43,661 bases of DNA from Megasphaera paucivorans (GTDB taxonomy: Bacteria > Bacillota > Negativicutes > Veillonellales > Megasphaeraceae). The number at the start of each line of letters is the position of its first letter. The first letter of the stretch is position 1. The position numbers and the translations under genes are program-made. The stretch is taken from NCBI RefSeq assembly GCF_900103535.1, contig NZ_FNHQ01000021.1:1-43661 (forward strand). The letters run 5' to 3'. Shown here one piece after another: positions 2,808-12,976 of this stretch. The notes beneath the pieces are model-generated. The model was not told where the DNA came from, searched no databases, and saw nothing but the letters and a program-made list of their open reading frames with translations.

Positions 2808-4312
2808 ATGACTGATAAAAACAATGCTAACATTGGTTTTGAAAAACAGATCTGGGATGCGGCTTGCGTACTTTGGGGGCATATCCCGGCTGCTGAATAT
2901 AGAAATGTAATTATTGGACTTATATTCTTGAAATATATTTCCACAGCATTTGATAAAAAATACAAGCAGCTCGTAGCCGAAGGTGACGGCTTTGAAAATG
3001 ACCCGGATGCATATCTGGAAGATAACGTGTTCTTTGTACCAGCTGAGGCTCGTTGGGATAAGATCGCGGCTACTGCTCATAAGCCGGAAATCGGTACGGT
3101 TATCGATGATGCCATGCGTGAAATTGAAGCAGACAATAAAAAACTGAAAAATGTTCTTCCGAAAAACTACGCAAGTCCGGATCTGGATAAGAGGATATTA
3201 GGTGACGTTGTTGATCTCTTCACAAATATGGACATGGGTGAGACGGAGGGAAATCGTGATGTTCTCGGTAGAACTTATGAATACTGTATCGCTCAATTTG
3301 CTGCTAAAGAGGGTAAAGGCGGTGGAGAATTCTATACGCCATCAAGTATTTTAAATACGCTGGTTTCTGTTCTAAAGCCATATTCAAATTGCCGTGTATA
3401 TGATCCTTGCTGTGGTAGCGGCGGTATGTTTGTTCAGTCTGCAGAATTTATTCAGGTACATTCCAGTAACATAGGGGCTATCTCCATATATGGTCAGGAA
3501 GCAAATCCGGATACTTGGAAGATGGCTGTTATGAACCTAACTATTCGTGGCCTTGATGCCAATCTAGGGCCATATCATGCAGACACATTTACAAATGATC
3601 TGCATCCGACGTTGAAAGCGGATTTTATTCTCGCAAATCCACCTTTCAATTATAATCCTTGGGGGCAGGAGAAATTAAAGGACGATGTTCGCTGGAAGTA
3701 TGGACTTCCTCCGGCGAGCAATGCCAACTTTGCATGGATTCAACATATGATTCATCACCTTGCACCAAACGGAAAAATCGGACTTGTACTCGCAAATGGA
3801 GCACTTTCCACACAGAGCAGCGGTGAAGGTGAGATAAGAAAGAAAATTATAGAGGATGATCTGGTTGAAGGGATTATCGCTATGCCTACACAGCTTTTCT
3901 ATAGCGTAACAATCCCTGTCACACTTTGGTTTATTACTAAAGGTAAGAAGCAGGAAGGTAAAACAGTATTTATTGATGCTCGCAAAATGGGACATATGGT
4001 GGATCGTAAGCATCGAGATTTTACCGATGAAGATATTCAGAAGATAGCAGATACTTTCGAGGCTTTCCAGAATGGAATTCTCAAGGATGAAAAAGGTTTT
4101 GTTCTGTTGCTACACTGCAAGACATTGCAAAACAGGATTATATCTTAACGCCCGGACGTTATGTTGGAATTGAGGAACAGGAAGACGACGGCGAGCCGTT
4201 TGATGAGAAGATGATGCGGTTGACTTCAGAGCTTTCGGAAATGTTTAAAAAATCCCATGAACTTGAAAATGAGATTTGCAAAAAGCTTGCAGCTATTGGC
4301 TATAGCAAATAA
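2808..4312 (+). pseudogene. hsdM: Type I RM methyltransferase subunit HsdM, frameshifted near its C-terminus
   Basis: This is the N6-adenine methyltransferase subunit that pairs with HsdS to modify DNA. The SAM-binding motif DPCCGSGGMF lies at residues 199-208 and the catalytic NPPF at 277-280, after an N-terminal helical domain. The start ATG at 2808 has an AGGAGG SD. The main frame stops at 4148 after 446 aa with a non-family tail. From 4103 the +1-shifted frame continues the normal family ending (SVATLQDIAKQDY, then ILTPGRYVG) to TAA at 4310. A single missing T in the run at 4097-4100 restores the frame and a protein of about 500 aa. The C-terminal helices usually contact HsdS, so the truncated protein is probably impaired. 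A sequencing error cannot be excluded. Confidence 0.85.
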
Positions 4313-4354: not shown

Positions 4355-4915
4355 ATGGGAGAACATACAGATGTTGTTCTTGCAGATTTATTGCAGAAAA
4401 AAGGCTATATACGAGGACCATTTGGTTCAGCCCTAAAAAGATCAGAAATGAAATCCGAAGGGGTTCCTGTATATGAGCAGCAACATGCAATATATAATTT
4501 GCGAGACTTTAGATTTTATATAGATGATCAGAAATTTGAAGGGCTAAAGAGATTTCAAGTAAAAACTAACGATTTGGTCATTAGCTGTTCTGGAACAGTA
4601 GGAAAAGTAACAATTATCAGAGAGAATGACCCTAAAGGTATTATTAGTCAGGCACTTCTATTATTGAGAGTAGATGCTTCAAAGGTACTACCAGAATATT
4701 TAAAGTATTTTTTTAGTTCACAAAAAGGCTACAACGCTATTGTATCAAGATCAAGTGGATCAGTTCAGGTTAATATTTCAAGACGAGAGGTAATTGAACA
4801 GATACCATTGTCATTACCTAATTTAGATGAACAAAAGAAGATAGTGGATATTTTAAAAACAATAGATGATAAAATTGTAACTAATGAAGAGATAAACAAG
4901 AATTTAGCGGCTTAA
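4355..4915 (+). CDS. hsdS: Type I RM specificity subunit HsdS-1, 5' half only (switched-off orientation)
   Basis: The protein has 186 aa: one target recognition domain followed by the central conserved helix ending DDKIVTNEEINKNLAA. A normal HsdS has two such units, about 390-400 aa. The ORF ends because recombination site a (4894-4914) supplies LAA and a stop. The missing second unit is directly downstream on the opposite strand (4912-5619). Joining residue 184 to the inverted half gives 184 + 209 = 393 aa, the same length as the intact HsdS-2. It follows hsdM by 42 bp with SD AAAGGAGAG. A half-HsdS can sometimes dimerise and work, so the product may not be inert. Confidence 0.88.
   Translation: MGEHTDVVLADLLQKKGYIRGPFGSALKRSEMKSEGVPVYEQQHAIYNLRDFRFYIDDQKFEGLKRFQVKTNDLVISCSGTVGKVTIIRENDPKGIISQALLLLRVDASKVLPEYLKYFFSSQKGYNAIVSRSSGSVQVNISRREVIEQIPLSLPNLDEQKKIVDILKTIDDKIVTNEEINKNLAA
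4894..4914 (+). repeat. hsdS inversion site a (stop-type)
   Basis: This 21-bp site contains the core AAACAAGAATTTAG followed by CGGCTTA. It is identical to site d (7832-7852) in inverted orientation and shares the 14-bp core with sites b and c. Read from HsdS-1 it encodes NKNLAA and then a stop. It is the left border of the first invertible 3'-half cassette. Confidence 0.9.
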
Positions 4916-5619
4916 AGGGCAAGGTTAGATATGTCCAGCTCGCCGGACATCAGTTTCGGTAAAAGCGTATCTCGGGTAATAATAAGCCTGTCGTTTTCGG
5001 CACGAAGGTTACGAATCTGTGCGAAAAATGGCTGTATAGAAGCATCAAATTCTTTTAGCTCACTTTCTGACGGTATGATTACAGGGATCTTGTTAAGGTT
5101 GGCTTGATTAATCTTAGGTTGAACGGCTCCTGTGACAATCGACTGAACGCTTGTTAAGCTGAAAAGCAGATACAGGAGTTCTACAGAAAAACCGTTCTTA
5201 CCTGTAATAATGTGAGCATGATTGTTTACCCAAAACTTTCCTTCTACGTATTGCAGAATAGGAAAACCTTTACTGTTGACAACGGTACCGTCTTCACCAA
5301 TAAGCAGATAGATTCCGTCAAACAGATATCTATCCACATAGTCCATGACGGAGGTAGCACCATAATATGGATATATTTTTGCAAGGTCAGCACGTTCACG
5401 ATTTGAAAGCGGAATGCGCTTAGAATCGTGCAGTTCTATTATTTCGAAAACTGTACCAAGACGCCAATCGTCCGGCAATACGCCATCAAATTGACTTATA
5501 TCTATAAAGCGATCTTTATAAAGAGTCCGTGCTTGCTGCTCTAAATTCTTGTTTAACATACAACCATAACTCTTGCGAGTGGCAAGAGCTAAATTGAGGG
5601 ACTGCCACTCCGTAGTCAT
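4912..5619 (-). CDS. hsdS: Inverted 3' half of hsdS-1 (silent specificity cassette)
   Basis: The 235-aa frame on the minus strand contains a second HsdS target recognition domain (LPDDWRLGTVFEIIELHDSK at its start) and the C-terminal conserved ending TLLPKLMSGELDISNLAL, parallel to the end of HsdS-2. Real HsdS homology begins at NKNLEQQ, residues 23-29, exactly at site b. The 21 residues before that look like read-in sequence rather than HsdS. There is no good SD before the ATG at 5619, so it is probably not translated in this orientation. Its stop (4912-4914) overlaps the stop of the 5' half, as expected for an inverted cassette. Recombination between sites a and b would fuse it in frame to HsdS-1. 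Confidence 0.88.
   Translation of the reverse strand: MTTEWQSLNLALATRKSYGCMLNKNLEQQARTLYKDRFIDISQFDGVLPDDWRLGTVFEIIELHDSKRIPLSNRERADLAKIYPYYGATSVMDYVDRYLFDGIYLLIGEDGTVVNSKGFPILQYVEGKFWVNNHAHIITGKNGFSVELLYLLFSLTSVQSIVTGAVQPKINQANLNKIPVIIPSESELKEFDASIQPFFAQIRNLRAENDRLIITRDTLLPKLMSGELDISNLAL
5534..5555 (-). repeat. hsdS inversion site b (read-through type)
   Basis: The complement of 5534-5555 reads TAAACAAGAATTTAG followed by AGCAGCA. All 22 bp match site c (7179-7200) in inverted orientation, and the 14-bp core matches all four sites. Read in the HsdS frame it encodes NKNLEQQ, which keeps the frame open. It is the right border of the first cassette. Confidence 0.9.
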
Positions 5620-5629
5620 TCTCTATAAT
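5602..5629 (+). promoter_or_regulatory. Candidate promoter of the integrase gene
   Basis: A perfect TATAAT (5624-5629) lies 16 bp after CTGCCA (5602-5607), a weak -35. It sits just upstream of the integrase SD (AAGGAG, 5635-5640). An imperfect inverted repeat, TAGTCATTCTC against GGAGAGATGACTA, spans this promoter and could be a binding site. The promoter lies outside the a-b cassette, so integrase expression would not flip with it. Confidence 0.4.
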
Positions 5630-5648
5630 AGAAAAAGGAGAGATGACT

Positions 5649-6638
5649 ATGAAACAAAAAGTGATTACCGAGGTTATGCAAGAAATGCTTGGCAGTCTCA
5701 ACAATGCGCAGCTGGAACGGCTGCAGGAGGTATTGGAACATGCGCTGTTCTATAAAGAAATAACAGAAATTGAGCAGGGTTCGGAAAATGGTACAACAAA
5801 TAAGCAACTGCTTAAGTCCTTTTTATCCTCAAAACGAATTGAAGGGTGCTCGGAAAAATCACTGACATACTACAGAACAACGATTGAAACAATGTTAGAT
5901 AAAGTCGAAAAAAACATACGGGAGATAACCACAGACAATCTTCGTGCTTATTTGACAGAATACCAACAGGAGAAGAATTCCAGTAGAGTTACAGTAGATA
6001 ACATTCGTCGCATACTTTCCAGCTTCTTCTCGTGGTTGGAAGATGAAGACTATATTTTGAAAAGCCCGGTGCGCCGGATACATAAGGTTAAGGCGTCATT
6101 GACGATTAAAGGAACATATTCGGATGAAGCATTGGAAAAGATGCGCGATAACTGTGAAAAGCCAAGGGATTTGGCATTGATTGATATGCTAACTTCTACA
6201 GGAATGCGTGTGGGAGAGCTGGTTCTCCTGAATCGTGATGATATAAATTTTGAAGAGCGAGAATGTGTGGTATTTGGTAAAGGCAGCAAGGAGCGGATGG
6301 TTTACTTTGATGCTCGAACCAAAATACATCTGCAGAGTTATCTGCAGGAACGAATGGATGATAATCCGGCGCTGTTTGTATCATTGCGGGCGCCGCATGA
6401 CCGATTGAAAATCGGAGGTGTCGAGTGCAGATTAAGAGAATTTGGCCATAGATTGGATATACCAAAGGTGCATCCGCATAAGTTTCGCCGGACACTTGCT
6501 ACAATGGCAATAGATAAAGGAATGCCAATAGAGCAACTACAGCAGCTTCTTGGACATAAACGGATAGATACGACGCTTCAGTATGCAATGGTAAAACAGA
6601 GCAACGTAAAACTTGCACATCGAAAGTATATAGGATAG
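5649..6638 (+). CDS. Tyrosine recombinase (XerC/D-like integrase), likely hsdS invertase
   Basis: The protein has 329 aa. An N-terminal SAM-like DNA-binding domain (about residues 50-140) precedes a catalytic domain with all expected residues: Arg in STGMRVGEL (about 187), Lys in GKGSKER, HPHKFRRT (about 275-282), GHKRIDTT (about 303) and the nucleophile Tyr in LQYAMV (about 312). The ATG at 5649 is chosen because AAGGAG at 5635-5640 is 8 bp upstream; the ATG at 5643 would be too close. It lies between two hsdS genes with four inverted copies of one site around it. By analogy with phase-variable Type I loci in Streptococcus and Bacteroides, it probably inverts the specificity cassettes. Confidence 0.9.
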   Translation: MKQKVITEVMQEMLGSLNNAQLERLQEVLEHALFYKEITEIEQGSENGTTNKQLLKSFLSSKRIEGCSEKSLTYYRTTIETMLDKVEKNIREITTDNLRAYLTEYQQEKNSSRVTVDNIRRILSSFFSWLEDEDYILKSPVRRIHKVKASLTIKGTYSDEALEKMRDNCEKPRDLALIDMLTSTGMRVGELVLLNRDDINFEERECVVFGKGSKERMVYFDARTKIHLQSYLQERMDDNPALFVSLRAPHDRLKIGGVECRLREFGHRLDIPKVHPHKFRRTLATMAIDKGMPIEQLQQLLGHKRIDTTLQYAMVKQSNVKLAHRKYIG

Positions 6639-6652
6639 GAAGGCACAGAAAA

Positions 6653-7834
6653 ATGAGCGAATGGGAAAAAACAAGGCTTGGAGATGTTATTGAAACAAAT
6701 ACAATCTCTTATTCGACAAAGGAAGGGTGGAAATTTGTTAATTATCTCGACACGGGCAATATAACGGAGAATGTTGTTGCTGAGATTCAAAGGATTGATT
6801 TGAATACTGAAAAACTTCCTAGTCGAGCTAAGCGAAAAGTTCATTATAATAGTATTCTTTATTCGACAGTTAGACCTAACCAACGTCATTATGGAATTGT
6901 TAAGGAACAGCCGGAGAACTTTCTGGTATCTACTGGATTTACAGTTATCGATGCGGATGAATTCAAGGTGGATGCAGACTTCCTTTATTTCTTTTTATCA
7001 CAAGATAACTTGGTTGAGCTGTTGCACTCAATAGCAGAACAGAGTGTTTCAACTTACCCTTCAATCAAAGCATCTGATATAGAAAACATCGAGGTGGAAT
7101 TACCACCTCTGGTTGAGCAAAAACGGATTGCATCTATTCTAAATGCATTATCAGATAAGATACGTCAGAATACGGAGATAAACAAGAATTTAGAGCAGCA
7201 GGTAGAGCTCTTGTTTGCTGATTGCTTTCTTAACCTTTCGGAAATTCCAGATGGATGGAAAGAATCTAATTTGCTTGAAATTGCTGACTACCTTAATGGC
7301 CTTGCCATGCAAAAATATCGTCCCGAAGCTGATGAAAAAGGTATTCCAGTCCTTAAAATCAAGGAGCTTCGTCAGGGTTTCTGTGATTCGAGCAGTGAAC
7401 TGTGTACGCCAAGCATTAAATCTGAGTACATTATTCATGATGGCGATGTAATCTTCTCATGGTCAGGCAGCCTCCTTGTTGATCTTTGGTGTGGTGACAT
7501 ATGTGGACTTAATCAACATCTCTTTAAAGTCACTTCGTCAAAATATGACAAGTGGTTCTATTATGCTTGGACAGCACATTATCTCTCGCGTTTTGCAGCA
7601 ATTGCCGCTGATAAGGCAACAACAATGGGACATATCAAACGAGAAGATCTTGGTAAAGCTAAAGTTTTAATTCCTTCGGATGAAGATTATCACAGGATCG
7701 GAGTTCTTCTTCAACCCATTTATGACCTCATCATCAGTAACAAGATTGAAAACCGTCAGCTGGCATCTGTTCGAGATAGCTTGTTGCCAAAGCTTATGTC
7801 TGGCGAACTTGATGTCTCCAACACTGATATCTAA
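6653..7834 (+). CDS. hsdS: Type I RM specificity subunit HsdS-2, full length
   Basis: The 393-aa protein has the complete architecture. The first target recognition domain (1-160) begins MSEWEKTRLGDVIETNT. A central conserved helix follows (EQKRIASILNALSDKI, then NTEINKNLEQQ). A second domain begins at IPDGWKESNLLE, and the C-terminal helix ends LLPKLMSGELDVS. SD AGGAAGG precedes the ATG and the gene lies 14 bp after the integrase. Site c cuts the protein in frame at residues 177-183. Site d begins with the stop codon itself (TAA 7832-7834), so the 3' half can be flipped out as in HsdS-1. In this orientation the gene is ON and should set the methylation target. Confidence 0.93.
   Translation: MSEWEKTRLGDVIETNTISYSTKEGWKFVNYLDTGNITENVVAEIQRIDLNTEKLPSRAKRKVHYNSILYSTVRPNQRHYGIVKEQPENFLVSTGFTVIDADEFKVDADFLYFFLSQDNLVELLHSIAEQSVSTYPSIKASDIENIEVELPPLVEQKRIASILNALSDKIRQNTEINKNLEQQVELLFADCFLNLSEIPDGWKESNLLEIADYLNGLAMQKYRPEADEKGIPVLKIKELRQGFCDSSSELCTPSIKSEYIIHDGDVIFSWSGSLLVDLWCGDICGLNQHLFKVTSSKYDKWFYYAWTAHYLSRFAAIAADKATTMGHIKREDLGKAKVLIPSDEDYHRIGVLLQPIYDLIISNKIENRQLASVRDSLLPKLMSGELDVSNTDI
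7179..7200 (+). repeat. hsdS inversion site c (read-through type)
   Basis: All 22 bp are identical to site b in the opposite orientation. In HsdS-2 the site encodes NKNLEQQ and keeps the reading frame open between the two target recognition domains. It is in direct orientation relative to site a. Confidence 0.9.
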
Positions 7835-7852
7835 GCCGCTAAATTCTTGTTT
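7832..7852 (-). repeat. hsdS inversion site d (stop-type)
   Basis: All 21 bp are identical to site a in the opposite orientation (GCCGCTAAATTCTTGTTT at 7835-7852). It overlaps the stop codon of hsdS-2. Inversion between c and d would cut hsdS-2 to a half gene ending NKNLAA, mirroring the present state of hsdS-1. Confidence 0.9.
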
Positions 7853-7928
7853 GAAACGGAAAAATTGTAAAAGGAAACCACCTCTGAAAAGAGGATAATA
7901 TAAAAAACAAAGTAAAGGAGTGAGACTC

Positions 7929-10900
7929 ATGCCAGAATTCTATACCGAAGCGGATTATGAAAATTCTATTATAGAGCTTTTTGAAAGCCTGGACTATCGT
8001 CATGTTTATGCACCTGCTTTAGAACGTGACTTCTATAGCCCTTTATATGAAGAAGAACTTAAGTCCGCGCTGCATAGGCTGAATCCAGATATGCCGGAAG
8101 GTGCAATAGCAGACGCCTTATGCAAACTGAAAAATTTTGAAAATGCGGAACTTGTACAGAAGAATGCTTTATTCATGGAATATCTTCAGCACGGAATCGA
8201 AGTGCGTTATTTTGTGAAAGGTGAAGAACGTTCTGGTCTGGTTTATCTTGCGGATTACAAGAATCCGGGAAAAAACTCCTTTGTAGTAGCAAACCAATGG
8301 ACTTTTATTGAAAACAGTAATAAACGTCCGGATGTTATCATTTTCTTAAACGGCTTACCTGTTGTTTTGATAGAACTTAAATCTCCTTCACGTGAAGAAA
8401 CAGATGCATCAGAGGGATATTTGCAGATTAGGAACTATATGCAGGAAATTCCGTCGATGTTTATCTATAACTGTATCTGCGTAATTAGTGATCATTTGAC
8501 GAGCAAAGCCGGAACGATTACTTCCGGTGAAGACCGCTTTATGGAATGGAAAACGAAGGATGGCAGCTACGAAAATACGCAGTATGCTCAGTTTGATACA
8601 TTTTTCGAGGGCATGTTTACACAGGAACGACTTCTCGACATTATTAAAAATTTTATTTGTTTTTCCAATGAAGGCTTGAAACAATTCAAGATATTAGCAG
8701 GATATCATCAATATTTTGCTGTTAATAAAGCAATTGAGTCCACAAAGCATGCTACTGCTACTGATGGGAAAGGTGGTGTTTTTTGGCATACACAAGGCAG
8801 TGGTAAGTCATTGTCTATGGTCTTTTATGCACATTTATTGCAAGAAGTCTTAAACAGTCCGACTATAGTTGTTATTACTGATCGAAATGATCTTGATGAC
8901 CAGCTTTATGGGCAGTTTGTAAAATGCAAAGATTTTCTGCGCCAGGAACCGGTTCATGCAACTTGTCGCAAGCTTAGTGAACATTCTTCTAAGGATGAAG
9001 TCGGCTTGAAAGATTGGTTGGAAGGACGCCAGGCAAACGGCATTATCTTTACTACTATGCAGAAGTTCGAGGAATCCTCCGAGCCGTTGTCGGAACGTCG
9101 GAATATAGTTGTTATGGCTGATGAAGCCCATCGCAGTCAATATGGTCTTAAAGAAAAAGTTGATACCAAAACCGGTGAGATCAAAATTGGCACGGCACGT
9201 GTTATAAGAGATAGCCTACCCAATGCTACATACATTGGATTTACCGGTACACCTATTGCAACAAAAGATAGAAATACCCATGAAGTTTTTGGAGATTACA
9301 TAGATATTTATGATATGACGCAAGCTGTAGAGGATGGTGCTACAAGACCTGTCTATTATGAAAGTCGTGTTATCAAGCTGGAATTTGATGAAGCTACGCT
9401 GCACAAAATAGATCATGAATATGACATTATGGCAAATAATGCTGATCCTGAAGTTGTAGAAAAGAGCAAGAAAGAACTTGGCCAGATGGAGGCTGTTCTT
9501 GGAAATGACGCAACGGTAGATTCGCTGGTGAAAGATATCATTGATCATTATGAAAACTATCGTGAAAACCTGCTGACAGGAAAAGCAATGGTAGTAGCGT
9601 ATTCTCGTGCCATTGCTATGAAGATCTACAATCGTATACTTGAGCTGCGTCCAAGTTGGAAAGAAAAGGTTAAGGTCGTAATGACCGAGAGCAATAAAGA
9701 TCCCAAAGAGTGGCGTGCTGTTATTGGAAATAAGCGTCGCAGAGATGAGCTCGCCAAGGAATTCAAAGACAATGATAGCGAAATGAAAATCGCCATTGTT
9801 GTTGATATGTGGCTAACCGGATTTGATGTTCCTTCTCTTGCGACTATGTATGTTTATAAGCCGATGCAGGGCTATAATCTGATGCAGGCGATTGCGCGTG
9901 TTAACCGTGTCTTCCGAGATAAGGAAGGCGGCTTGATTGTCGACTACGTTGGCATCGCATCCGCTTTGAAGCAGGCTATGAATGATTATACAGTTCGTGA
10001 TAAAAAGAACTACGGTGATACCGATATTGCTAAGGTTGCTTACCCGAAGTTCCTCGAGAAGTTAGATGTTTGCCGTGATATTTTCCACGGTTACGATTAT
10101 TCAAAGTTTGCAATCGGAACAGATCTGGAAAGATCAAAGGCTATTACTGGTGCTGTGAACTTTATTATGGCACTTGATAAGGAAGATAAGAAGATTGACT
10201 TCATAAAGGAATCATTGCTTCTGAAGCAGGCACTGTCGCTTTGCTCTTCTCTTACAGAACGTGATCTGCGAGTGGAAGCAGCATTCTTTGAATCTGTGCG
10301 AGTTCTTGTTAACCGTCTTATGAATCAGGGCGACGGTCACAAGGTAAGCCTGAAGGAGATGAATGACCGTATAAATGAACTCTTGAAATCAAGTATAAAG
10401 AGTGACGGAGTAATCAATCTCTTTTCGGATGTGAAGGAAGAGTTTTCGCTGTTTGATCCGAAGTTCCTTGAGGAAATCTCCAAGATGAAGGAAAAAAATC
10501 TTGCTGTTGAGCTTTTGAAAAAATTAATTGCTGAACAGGTTAAGGTCTTTCGTAGGACAAATGTTGTGAAATCCGAGAAGTTCAGCGAACGGATGCAGAA
10601 AGTTATGAACTCCTATCTTAATGGCATGTTATCAAATGAGCAGGTTATAGAAGAACTTTTAAATATGGCAAAACAGATTGCAACGGCAAATAAGGAGGGC
10701 GATGCTCTTGGACTTACGCCTGATGAATTGGCATTTTATGATGCATTAACAAAACCGCAGGCAATAAAAGACTTTTATCAGAATGACGAACTTGTTGCTA
10801 TCACAAAAGAATTGACGGAAACACTGCGGAAAAATCGCACAATAGATTGGCAGAAGCGTGACTCAGCAAGAGCCAAAATGCGCATGATGATAAAACGTCT

Positions 10901-11126
10901 TTTGAGAAAGCATAAGTATCCGCCGGAAGGTATGGAAGATGCGGTTCAAACTGTCATGATGCAGTGTGAATTGTGGACAGACAGTGTTATGGACGTAGAT
11001 AAGGATCAATCAAACATATATAACTTTCACAGCAATGAGACACTTTCTATGGTAGCTGAAGATGTGACATCAAAATCATCATATCATCTCAAGGATAAAA
11101 TTGGACATATTCCCAAAAACGGGTAA
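7929..11126 (+). CDS. hsdR: Type I RM restriction subunit HsdR
   Basis: The 1065-aa motor-nuclease subunit cuts unmodified DNA after ATP-driven translocation. The N-terminal PD-(D/E)xK nuclease is visible as RPDVIIFLNG with IELK (Asp about 135, Glu-x-Lys 149-151). The helicase motor has Walker A TQGSGKS (about 288-294), DEAH box (about 398-401), FTGTPI, and motif VI QAIARVNRVFRD. The C-terminal helical part ends at 1065. ATG at 7929 is chosen because AAAGGAG (7914-7920) is 8 bp upstream; the GTG at 7920 overlaps the SD. The gene is intact. If HsdM were non-functional, unmodified DNA would pose a self-restriction risk, but HsdR needs the HsdM-HsdS complex to bind DNA, so loss of M should also silence R. 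Confidence 0.95.
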   Translation: MPEFYTEADYENSIIELFESLDYRHVYAPALERDFYSPLYEEELKSALHRLNPDMPEGAIADALCKLKNFENAELVQKNALFMEYLQHGIEVRYFVKGEERSGLVYLADYKNPGKNSFVVANQWTFIENSNKRPDVIIFLNGLPVVLIELKSPSREETDASEGYLQIRNYMQEIPSMFIYNCICVISDHLTSKAGTITSGEDRFMEWKTKDGSYENTQYAQFDTFFEGMFTQERLLDIIKNFICFSNEGLKQFKILAGYHQYFAVNKAIESTKHATATDGKGGVFWHTQGSGKSLSMVFYAHLLQEVLNSPTIVVITDRNDLDDQLYGQFVKCKDFLRQEPVHATCRKLSEHSSKDEVGLKDWLEGRQANGIIFTTMQKFEESSEPLSERRNIVVMADEAHRSQYGLKEKVDTKTGEIKIGTARVIRDSLPNATYIGFTGTPIATKDRNTHEVFGDYIDIYDMTQAVEDGATRPVYYESRVIKLEFDEATLHKIDHEYDIMANNADPEVVEKSKKELGQMEAVLGNDATVDSLVKDIIDHYENYRENLLTGKAMVVAYSRAIAMKIYNRILELRPSWKEKVKVVMTESNKDPKEWRAVIGNKRRRDELAKEFKDNDSEMKIAIVVDMWLTGFDVPSLATMYVYKPMQGYNLMQAIARVNRVFRDKEGGLIVDYVGIASALKQAMNDYTVRDKKNYGDTDIAKVAYPKFLEKLDVCRDIFHGYDYSKFAIGTDLERSKAITGAVNFIMALDKEDKKIDFIKESLLLKQALSLCSSLTERDLRVEAAFFESVRVLVNRLMNQGDGHKVSLKEMNDRINELLKSSIKSDGVINLFSDVKEEFSLFDPKFLEEISKMKEKNLAVELLKKLIAEQVKVFRRTNVVKSEKFSERMQKVMNSYLNGMLSNEQVIEELLNMAKQIATANKEGDALGLTPDELAFYDALTKPQAIKDFYQNDELVAITKELTETLRKNRTIDWQKRDSARAKMRMMIKRLLRKHKYPPEGMEDAVQTVMMQCELWTDSVMDVDKDQSNIYNFHSNETLSMVAEDVTSKSSYHLKDKIGHIPKNG

Positions 11127-12616: not shown

Positions 12617-12976
12617 GTGATAATTATTGAAAAACGCTTAAAAATTCAGGAAACGAAAAAATGGAAAAAAGGAAGGAGGACAGAACGACACCGTGAGGAG
12701 GAAAAGGAACGTATCCGTAAGGTTTTTTCTGGAAATCAGACAAGTGAAATCATTCCTGCTAAATATAAGGGAGGCACGGCTGCACATCGGTATCTTCGTG
12801 TTGCAGCATATTGTCGAGTCAGTACATATGGGGATGCGCAGGCGGGAAGCTTTGAATTACAGATTCAGCATTTCAAGGAACAGATAACCAAAAATCAGGA
12901 TTGGCAGTTTGTTAATATATATTTGGATGAAGGAGTGTCAGGTACATTCATCAAGCTGCCGCCGTTCATTCGGTGA
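12617..12976 (+). pseudogene. Large serine recombinase, N-terminal remnant
   Basis: The frame encodes 119 aa. A basic leader of about 60 aa is followed by the resolvase/invertase N-terminal motif LRVAAYCRVST (with the catalytic Ser) and by NIYLDEGVSGT, the conserved end of the first catalytic block. Transposon-type large serine recombinases run to about 500 aa. Here the homology ends at about 12945 and nine unrelated residues (FIKLPPFIR) lead to a stop. The remaining catalytic and DNA-binding domains are gone. The breakpoint lies directly against the 3' end of the MFS gene (12966), so a rearrangement fused them. SD AAGGAGG at 12611-12617 is strong, but no ATG follows in frame. Confidence 0.8.

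Follow-up and report, generated by a model that had tools for sequence, protein, structure and literature searches.

How a Type I restriction locus with two hsdS genes and a recombinase between them determines which of the two is complete is the question raised by one end of a 43,661-nucleotide stretch of Megasphaera paucivorans DNA (contig NZ_FNHQ01000021.1; the window, that is, the whole stretch that was analysed), which is part of a 2.9-Mb draft genome in 76 contigs. Between 2808 and 11126, open reading frames, Pfam and NCBIfam give the one-strand order hsdM, hsdS, tyrosine recombinase, hsdS and hsdR, with the following parts:

2808..4312, plus strand: hsdM, modification subunit (Pfam HsdM_N, N6_Mtase; three-frame translation and alignment to the related loci L154 and L002)
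4355..4915, plus strand: hsdS-1 5' half with the first recognition domain, truncated (OFF), 186 aa (Pfam Methylase_S; ORF)
4908..5540, minus strand: left 3' cassette with a second recognition domain, antisense to hsdS-1 (Methylase_S on the minus-strand ORF 4912-5619)
5602..5629, plus strand: promoter-like sequence before the recombinase (10/12 matches, such hits being no commoner in the region than in shuffles)
5643..6638, plus strand: XerA-like tyrosine recombinase, 331 aa (Pfam Phage_integrase; NCBIfam XerA_Arch above cut-off)
6653..7834, plus strand: hsdS-2, complete (ON), 393 aa, its 5' half reaching up to site c (ORF; Pfam)
7194..7838, plus strand: right 3' cassette with a second recognition domain, sense with hsdS-2 (ORF; Pfam)
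7920..11126, plus strand: hsdR, restriction subunit, with an alternative start possible at the ATG at 7929 (Pfam HSDR_N, SWI2_SNF2, T1RH-like_C; NCBIfam hsdR above cut-off)

As the initial annotation had it, hsdS-1 is OFF and hsdS-2 is ON in the sequenced state, the open reading frames of 186 and 393 aa leaving exactly one complete hsdS. The catalytic set of the recombinase (R, K, H-x-x-R, H, Y) is intact, being represented by R189, the K in GKGSKER, H279/R282, H305 and Y314.

Both 3' recognition domains are flanked by identical short inverted repeats, with one site type present at four places. The four cores (AAACAAGAATTTAG) first noticed in the initial annotation are all exact, at 4894-4907 (+), 5541-5554 (-), 7180-7193 (+) and 7839-7852 (-), and so are the two identical pairs that it described, a/d over 21 bp (4894-4914 and 7832-7852) and b/c over 22 bp (5534-5555 and 7179-7200). 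Gene and site positions also agree with its proposal that the cores bracket the 3' halves of the two hsdS genes around the tyrosine recombinase. Shifted by one base from the core, the site reads TAAA-CAAGAA-TTTA, two short inverted arms with six bases between them, and is placed as follows:

4893..4906, plus strand: site a, flank type T (GCGGCTTA, leads to stop), by sequence match to the site formula
5542..5555, minus strand: site b, flank type E (GAGCAGCA, reads into the second recognition domain)
7179..7192, plus strand: site c, flank type E, by sequence match to the site formula
7840..7853, minus strand: site d, flank type T, first base C and not T (13/14 of the formula)

Sites a, b and c are exact to TAAA-N6-TTTA and site d is one base off. 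Over the 2.9 Mb of the genome, exact matches to the core are found at four places, all of them in this locus, and a reversed control pattern is found at one; a weak window-wide shuffle test, with two mismatches allowed, gave a mean of 1.3, with 3 of 100 shuffles reaching four. Chance is ruled out because the cores are exact, are placed at the hsdS halves and recur in relatives. Virtual inversions indicate what each pair of sites could yield: a flip between a and b gives a 393-aa HsdS, just as had been claimed, and one between b and c a 389-aa HsdS composed of the hsdS-2 5' half and the left cassette, while a c-d flip shortens HsdS-2 to 182 aa and an a-d flip leaves hsdS-1 truncated at 186 aa. 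Translation of a parked cassette from an in-frame ATG ahead of sites b and d was rejected, such a start being unconserved (14/98 and 12/98 loci, respectively).

A search of GTDB genomes with the recombinase as the query returned at least 570 relatives. Loci were set in the direction of the recombinase, and a script scored their sites, half genes and cassette directions; most of the resulting comparisons are between species, and metagenome assemblies may join mixed states and could in this way create or hide exceptions. The recombinase is present in 26/396, 36/396 and 18/213 genomes of three sampled families, in only 6 of the 398 genomes drawn from the phylum of the locus, and, as a close relative, in only 2 of 17 sampled genomes of its own family, this genome included. 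About 100 relatives have a common layout, with sites in + and - orientation, the recombinase, and again sites in + and - orientation, hsdM lying at the left and, in most, hsdR at the right. In all 92 loci with at least four sites (92/92) a single spacer is found at every site, as compared with at most 5 in 1000 shuffles, in a test that used a degenerate pattern and did not require identity between sites, and the 6-bp spacer differs from locus to locus. If strands are exchanged between identical six-base regions, such private identical spacers are what one would expect to be maintained. Flank types pair in the same manner (a with d, b with c) in 90 loci. Among the variants, the locus L048 contains three cassette units, and a pair of its cassettes is 100% identical. 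A relative of the recombinase with 57.5% identity is encoded on an archaeal plasmid (Methanosphaera; L184, 6501-7499), where two DUF2207 genes lie nearby and no hsd genes are annotated within about 6.5 kb.

The survey also reveals how the two hsdS genes relate to each other. Exactly one complete hsdS is found in 90 of 95 intact four-site loci, and two or none in the remaining 5. In particular, relative to the recombinase, the left cassette is sense and the right antisense in 54/95 loci, the left antisense and the right sense in 36/95, both antisense in 3/95 and both sense in 2/95. The rule holds when loci are grouped by recombinase identity, with 65 of 70 clusters obeying it and 5 not at 95% (p = 2e-14 against one half), and 21/23 clusters at 80%. 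Exceptions are L040, L050, L062 (contig cut), L079, L088 and L179, the last of which is a Ligilactobacillus salivarius plasmid locus from a complete record in which both hsdS genes are truncated. Both modes are present in nine of the 95% clusters, and thus the identity of the ON gene changes often in evolution and exclusivity is retained. In 82 of the 87 discordant loci in which hsdM can be seen, the recombinase and hsdM have the same direction.

Alternative junctions in related genomes, the absence of which the initial annotation would have counted against the switch, are found: among near-identical relatives, cassettes are inverted or relocated precisely at the sites, and for this reason the switch is regarded as real. 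Four Lactococcus plasmid loci (L180-L183) are near-identical outside the cassettes, with flanks at 99.6-100% and three of them sharing one recombinase accession. Two of these (L180, L183) carry cassette X in sense at the left and cassette Y in antisense at the right; L181 carries Y in sense at the left and X in antisense at the right; and L182 carries X in both places, antisense at the left and sense at the right, with hsdS-2 ON. In all four, one hsdS is complete and the direction of the recombinase is unchanged. Elsewhere, an in-place inversion of 878 bp (99.8% identity), with its ends at sites a and b, distinguishes L069 from L071, and the two also carry different right cassettes; L007 and L009 fit an inversion of everything from a to d as one unit; and between L011 and L027 a cassette has moved with inversion. 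Over all loci, homologous cassette pairs in the same place number 13 in the same orientation and 7 flipped, and those in the other place 8 in the same orientation and 9 flipped. No single reaction gives all of these relations. In three loci (L088, L103 and L182) the same cassette is present at both positions with 98.8-100% identity, which suggests that two DNA copies exchanged sequence or that the duplication arose in assembly.

The explanation that we consider highly probable is that a XerA-like recombinase shuffles two 3' cassettes onto two hsdS 5' halves, with one of four specificities present at a time. The recombinase would exchange DNA at the four copies of TAAA-N6-TTTA, and either 3' cassette could be joined to either 5' half. 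With the cassettes in opposite orientations relative to the recombinase, one 5' half would be followed by a sense cassette and form a complete hsdS, and the other would be followed by an antisense cassette and end in a stop; the output is likely to be one of four specificities at any time. In this strain the locus is predicted to switch, presumably by the action of its own recombinase.

The open frame of hsdM stops at 4148 after a one-base frameshift near 4100, as judged against L154 and L002, a frameshift that the initial annotation had overlooked. The homologous C-terminal stretch resumes in another frame, with its stop at 4310-4312, and about 65 C-terminal residues are lost; the hsdM genes of L154 and L002 are in frame at the same stretch. 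As assembled, then, HsdS-2 and HsdR are intact and HsdM is frameshifted near 4100, and the sequence leaves two readings: the system may be inactive in this strain, or the assembly may be in error by a single base. A decayed locus, in which hsdM is broken, the shuffling sites are kept and this strain has neither methylation nor restriction, would be compatible with the shuffling explanation of the anatomy, and we regard it as possible, if rather unlikely. The loss of those C-terminal residues speaks for it, whereas the recombinase, hsdS-2 and hsdR are all intact, the single-base difference adjoins a short run of T in a draft assembly, and the two relatives are in frame at this point.

The initial annotation saw in this design the most distinctive feature here, but the same layout and site formula are already present in SsuCC20p of Streptococcus suis CC20 (PMC10790761; PMC5198162). 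The two have in common the gene order around the recombinase, TAAA-N6-TTTA, identical repeats flanking the 3' domains, four alleles, one complete hsdS at once and a downstream hsdS able to be ON, a likeness that rests on the published repeat and map of SsuCC20p. Its repeat forms two identical 14-bp sets, TAAATCATCATTTA, i.e. TAAA-TCATCA-TTTA; deleting xerD locked the allele in one state; the hsdS downstream of xerD was both transcribed and active in DNA methylation; and only one complete hsdS was found in assemblies, long reads and PCR (PMC10790761). Here, hsdS-2 is predicted to be expressed behind the recombinase, and switching would alter methylation, an effect demonstrated for SsuCC20p. The spacer is CAAGAA here and TCATCA in SsuCC20p, the latter spacer being found also in the Lactococcus loci and in L083, L132 and L142. 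SsuCC20p differs also in its location within a prophage region and in having two additional hypothetical genes, and the hsdM frameshift belongs to the present locus.

The authors of that study speculate on coordinated double recombination (PMC10790761). A coordinated double exchange over the four sites, by which the cassettes would swap or flip as a pair and skip the state with two or no complete genes, can be put forward tentatively. The 90-to-5 rule extends the pattern across many species; single steps that occur rarely, through intermediates that are unstable or selected against, would fit as well.

Excision and reintegration at direct repeats (a-c, then b-d), by which a cassette would change place and keep its orientation to the recombinase, a route put forward for the pneumococcal tvr locus, is unlikely as the general explanation. 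By construction it preserves the opposite orientation of the cassettes and the direction of the recombinase, and it matches the 8 homologous pairs found in the other place in the same orientation (e.g., L096/L099 at 99.5%), but it cannot produce the in-place flip of L069/L071 or the moves with inversion of L180/L181 and L011/L027. It may be one of several routes.

Decidedly unlikely is a scheme that restricts recombination to sites sharing an outer flank (the pairs a-d and b-c), in which the cassettes swap via two successive inversions and the ON gene is constant. The 21-22 bp shared within a/d and b/c and the matching of flank types in 90 loci agree with such a restriction, as do L180/L181, which fit an a-d plus b-c product, and L007/L009, which fit an a-d flip. 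However, the ON hsdS differs between L180 and L182, both modes are present in nine recombinase clusters at 95% identity, and the S. suis isolate 861160 holds both hsdS-1-ON and hsdS-2-ON forms of SsuCC20p; moreover, a single a-d or b-c step would reverse the recombinase relative to hsdM, a state found in only 5 of the 87 discordant loci that show hsdM.

Finally, the reading of a-b and c-d as two independent inversion switches that flip separately and give two, one or no complete hsdS, which the initial annotation had favoured, is very improbable: the 14-bp core common to all inverted pairs, the 393-aa HsdS restored by the virtual a-b flip, the in-place flip of the left cassette in L069/L071 and the few loci with two or no complete hsdS are in its favour, but about half of the loci would then be expected to have two or none and 5/95 do (90 loci against 5, and 65 clusters against 5, p = 2e-14 against one half), the right cassette has also changed in L069/L071, with one gene still ON, and SsuCC20p long reads and PCR give only single-hsdS forms (PMC10790761).

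Other phase-variable Type I loci share part of the shuffling design. The SpnIII/Spn556II cod locus of Streptococcus pneumoniae, with PsrA (CreX), likewise shuffles Type I hsdS genes by a locus-encoded tyrosine recombinase and a short (15-bp) repeat (PMC4948785, PMC7096588), but it has three different repeat pairs (15, 298 and 85 bp) and three hsdS genes, and its functional hsdS is only the one behind hsdM, whereas here there is one site type and the ON hsdS is behind the recombinase. The Listeria monocytogenes ST8 hsd locus (PMC4783014) also comprises hsdR, hsdM and an integrase with an hsdS gene on either side, in four arrangements; its hsdS genes are oppositely oriented and its two repeat pairs differ in sequence, whereas at the present locus both 5' halves are on the plus strand and one site type is found. 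The SpnIV tvr locus of S. pneumoniae is likewise phase-variable and changes specificity by recombination, but the route described for it is excision and reintegration (PMC6265443).

The Megasphaera locus itself is a further case of the switch known from S. suis, and it is the survey that matters more. SsuCC20p was reported as limited to streptococci; defined by site and layout, and as far as genome sequences tell, this kind of locus is much wider than that. Recombinases of this family are common in certain families of Bacillota (36/396 genomes in one that was sampled), and an observation from one lineage becomes a general rule, with a private spacer per locus and almost always one complete hsdS. 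Harmless hosts, for instance those of dairy Lactococcus plasmids, offer a setting where the mechanism of exclusivity could be tested.

Two further genes were noted beside the locus. The minus-strand gene at 593-2482 encodes a 629-aa protein with no Pfam match, the middle of which weakly matches the PADLOC capP model (E 8e-8) and which holds an HExxH stretch typical of metalloproteases. At 12617-12976 (+), a 119-aa open frame resembles, as judged by eye, a truncated N-terminal portion of a serine recombinase.
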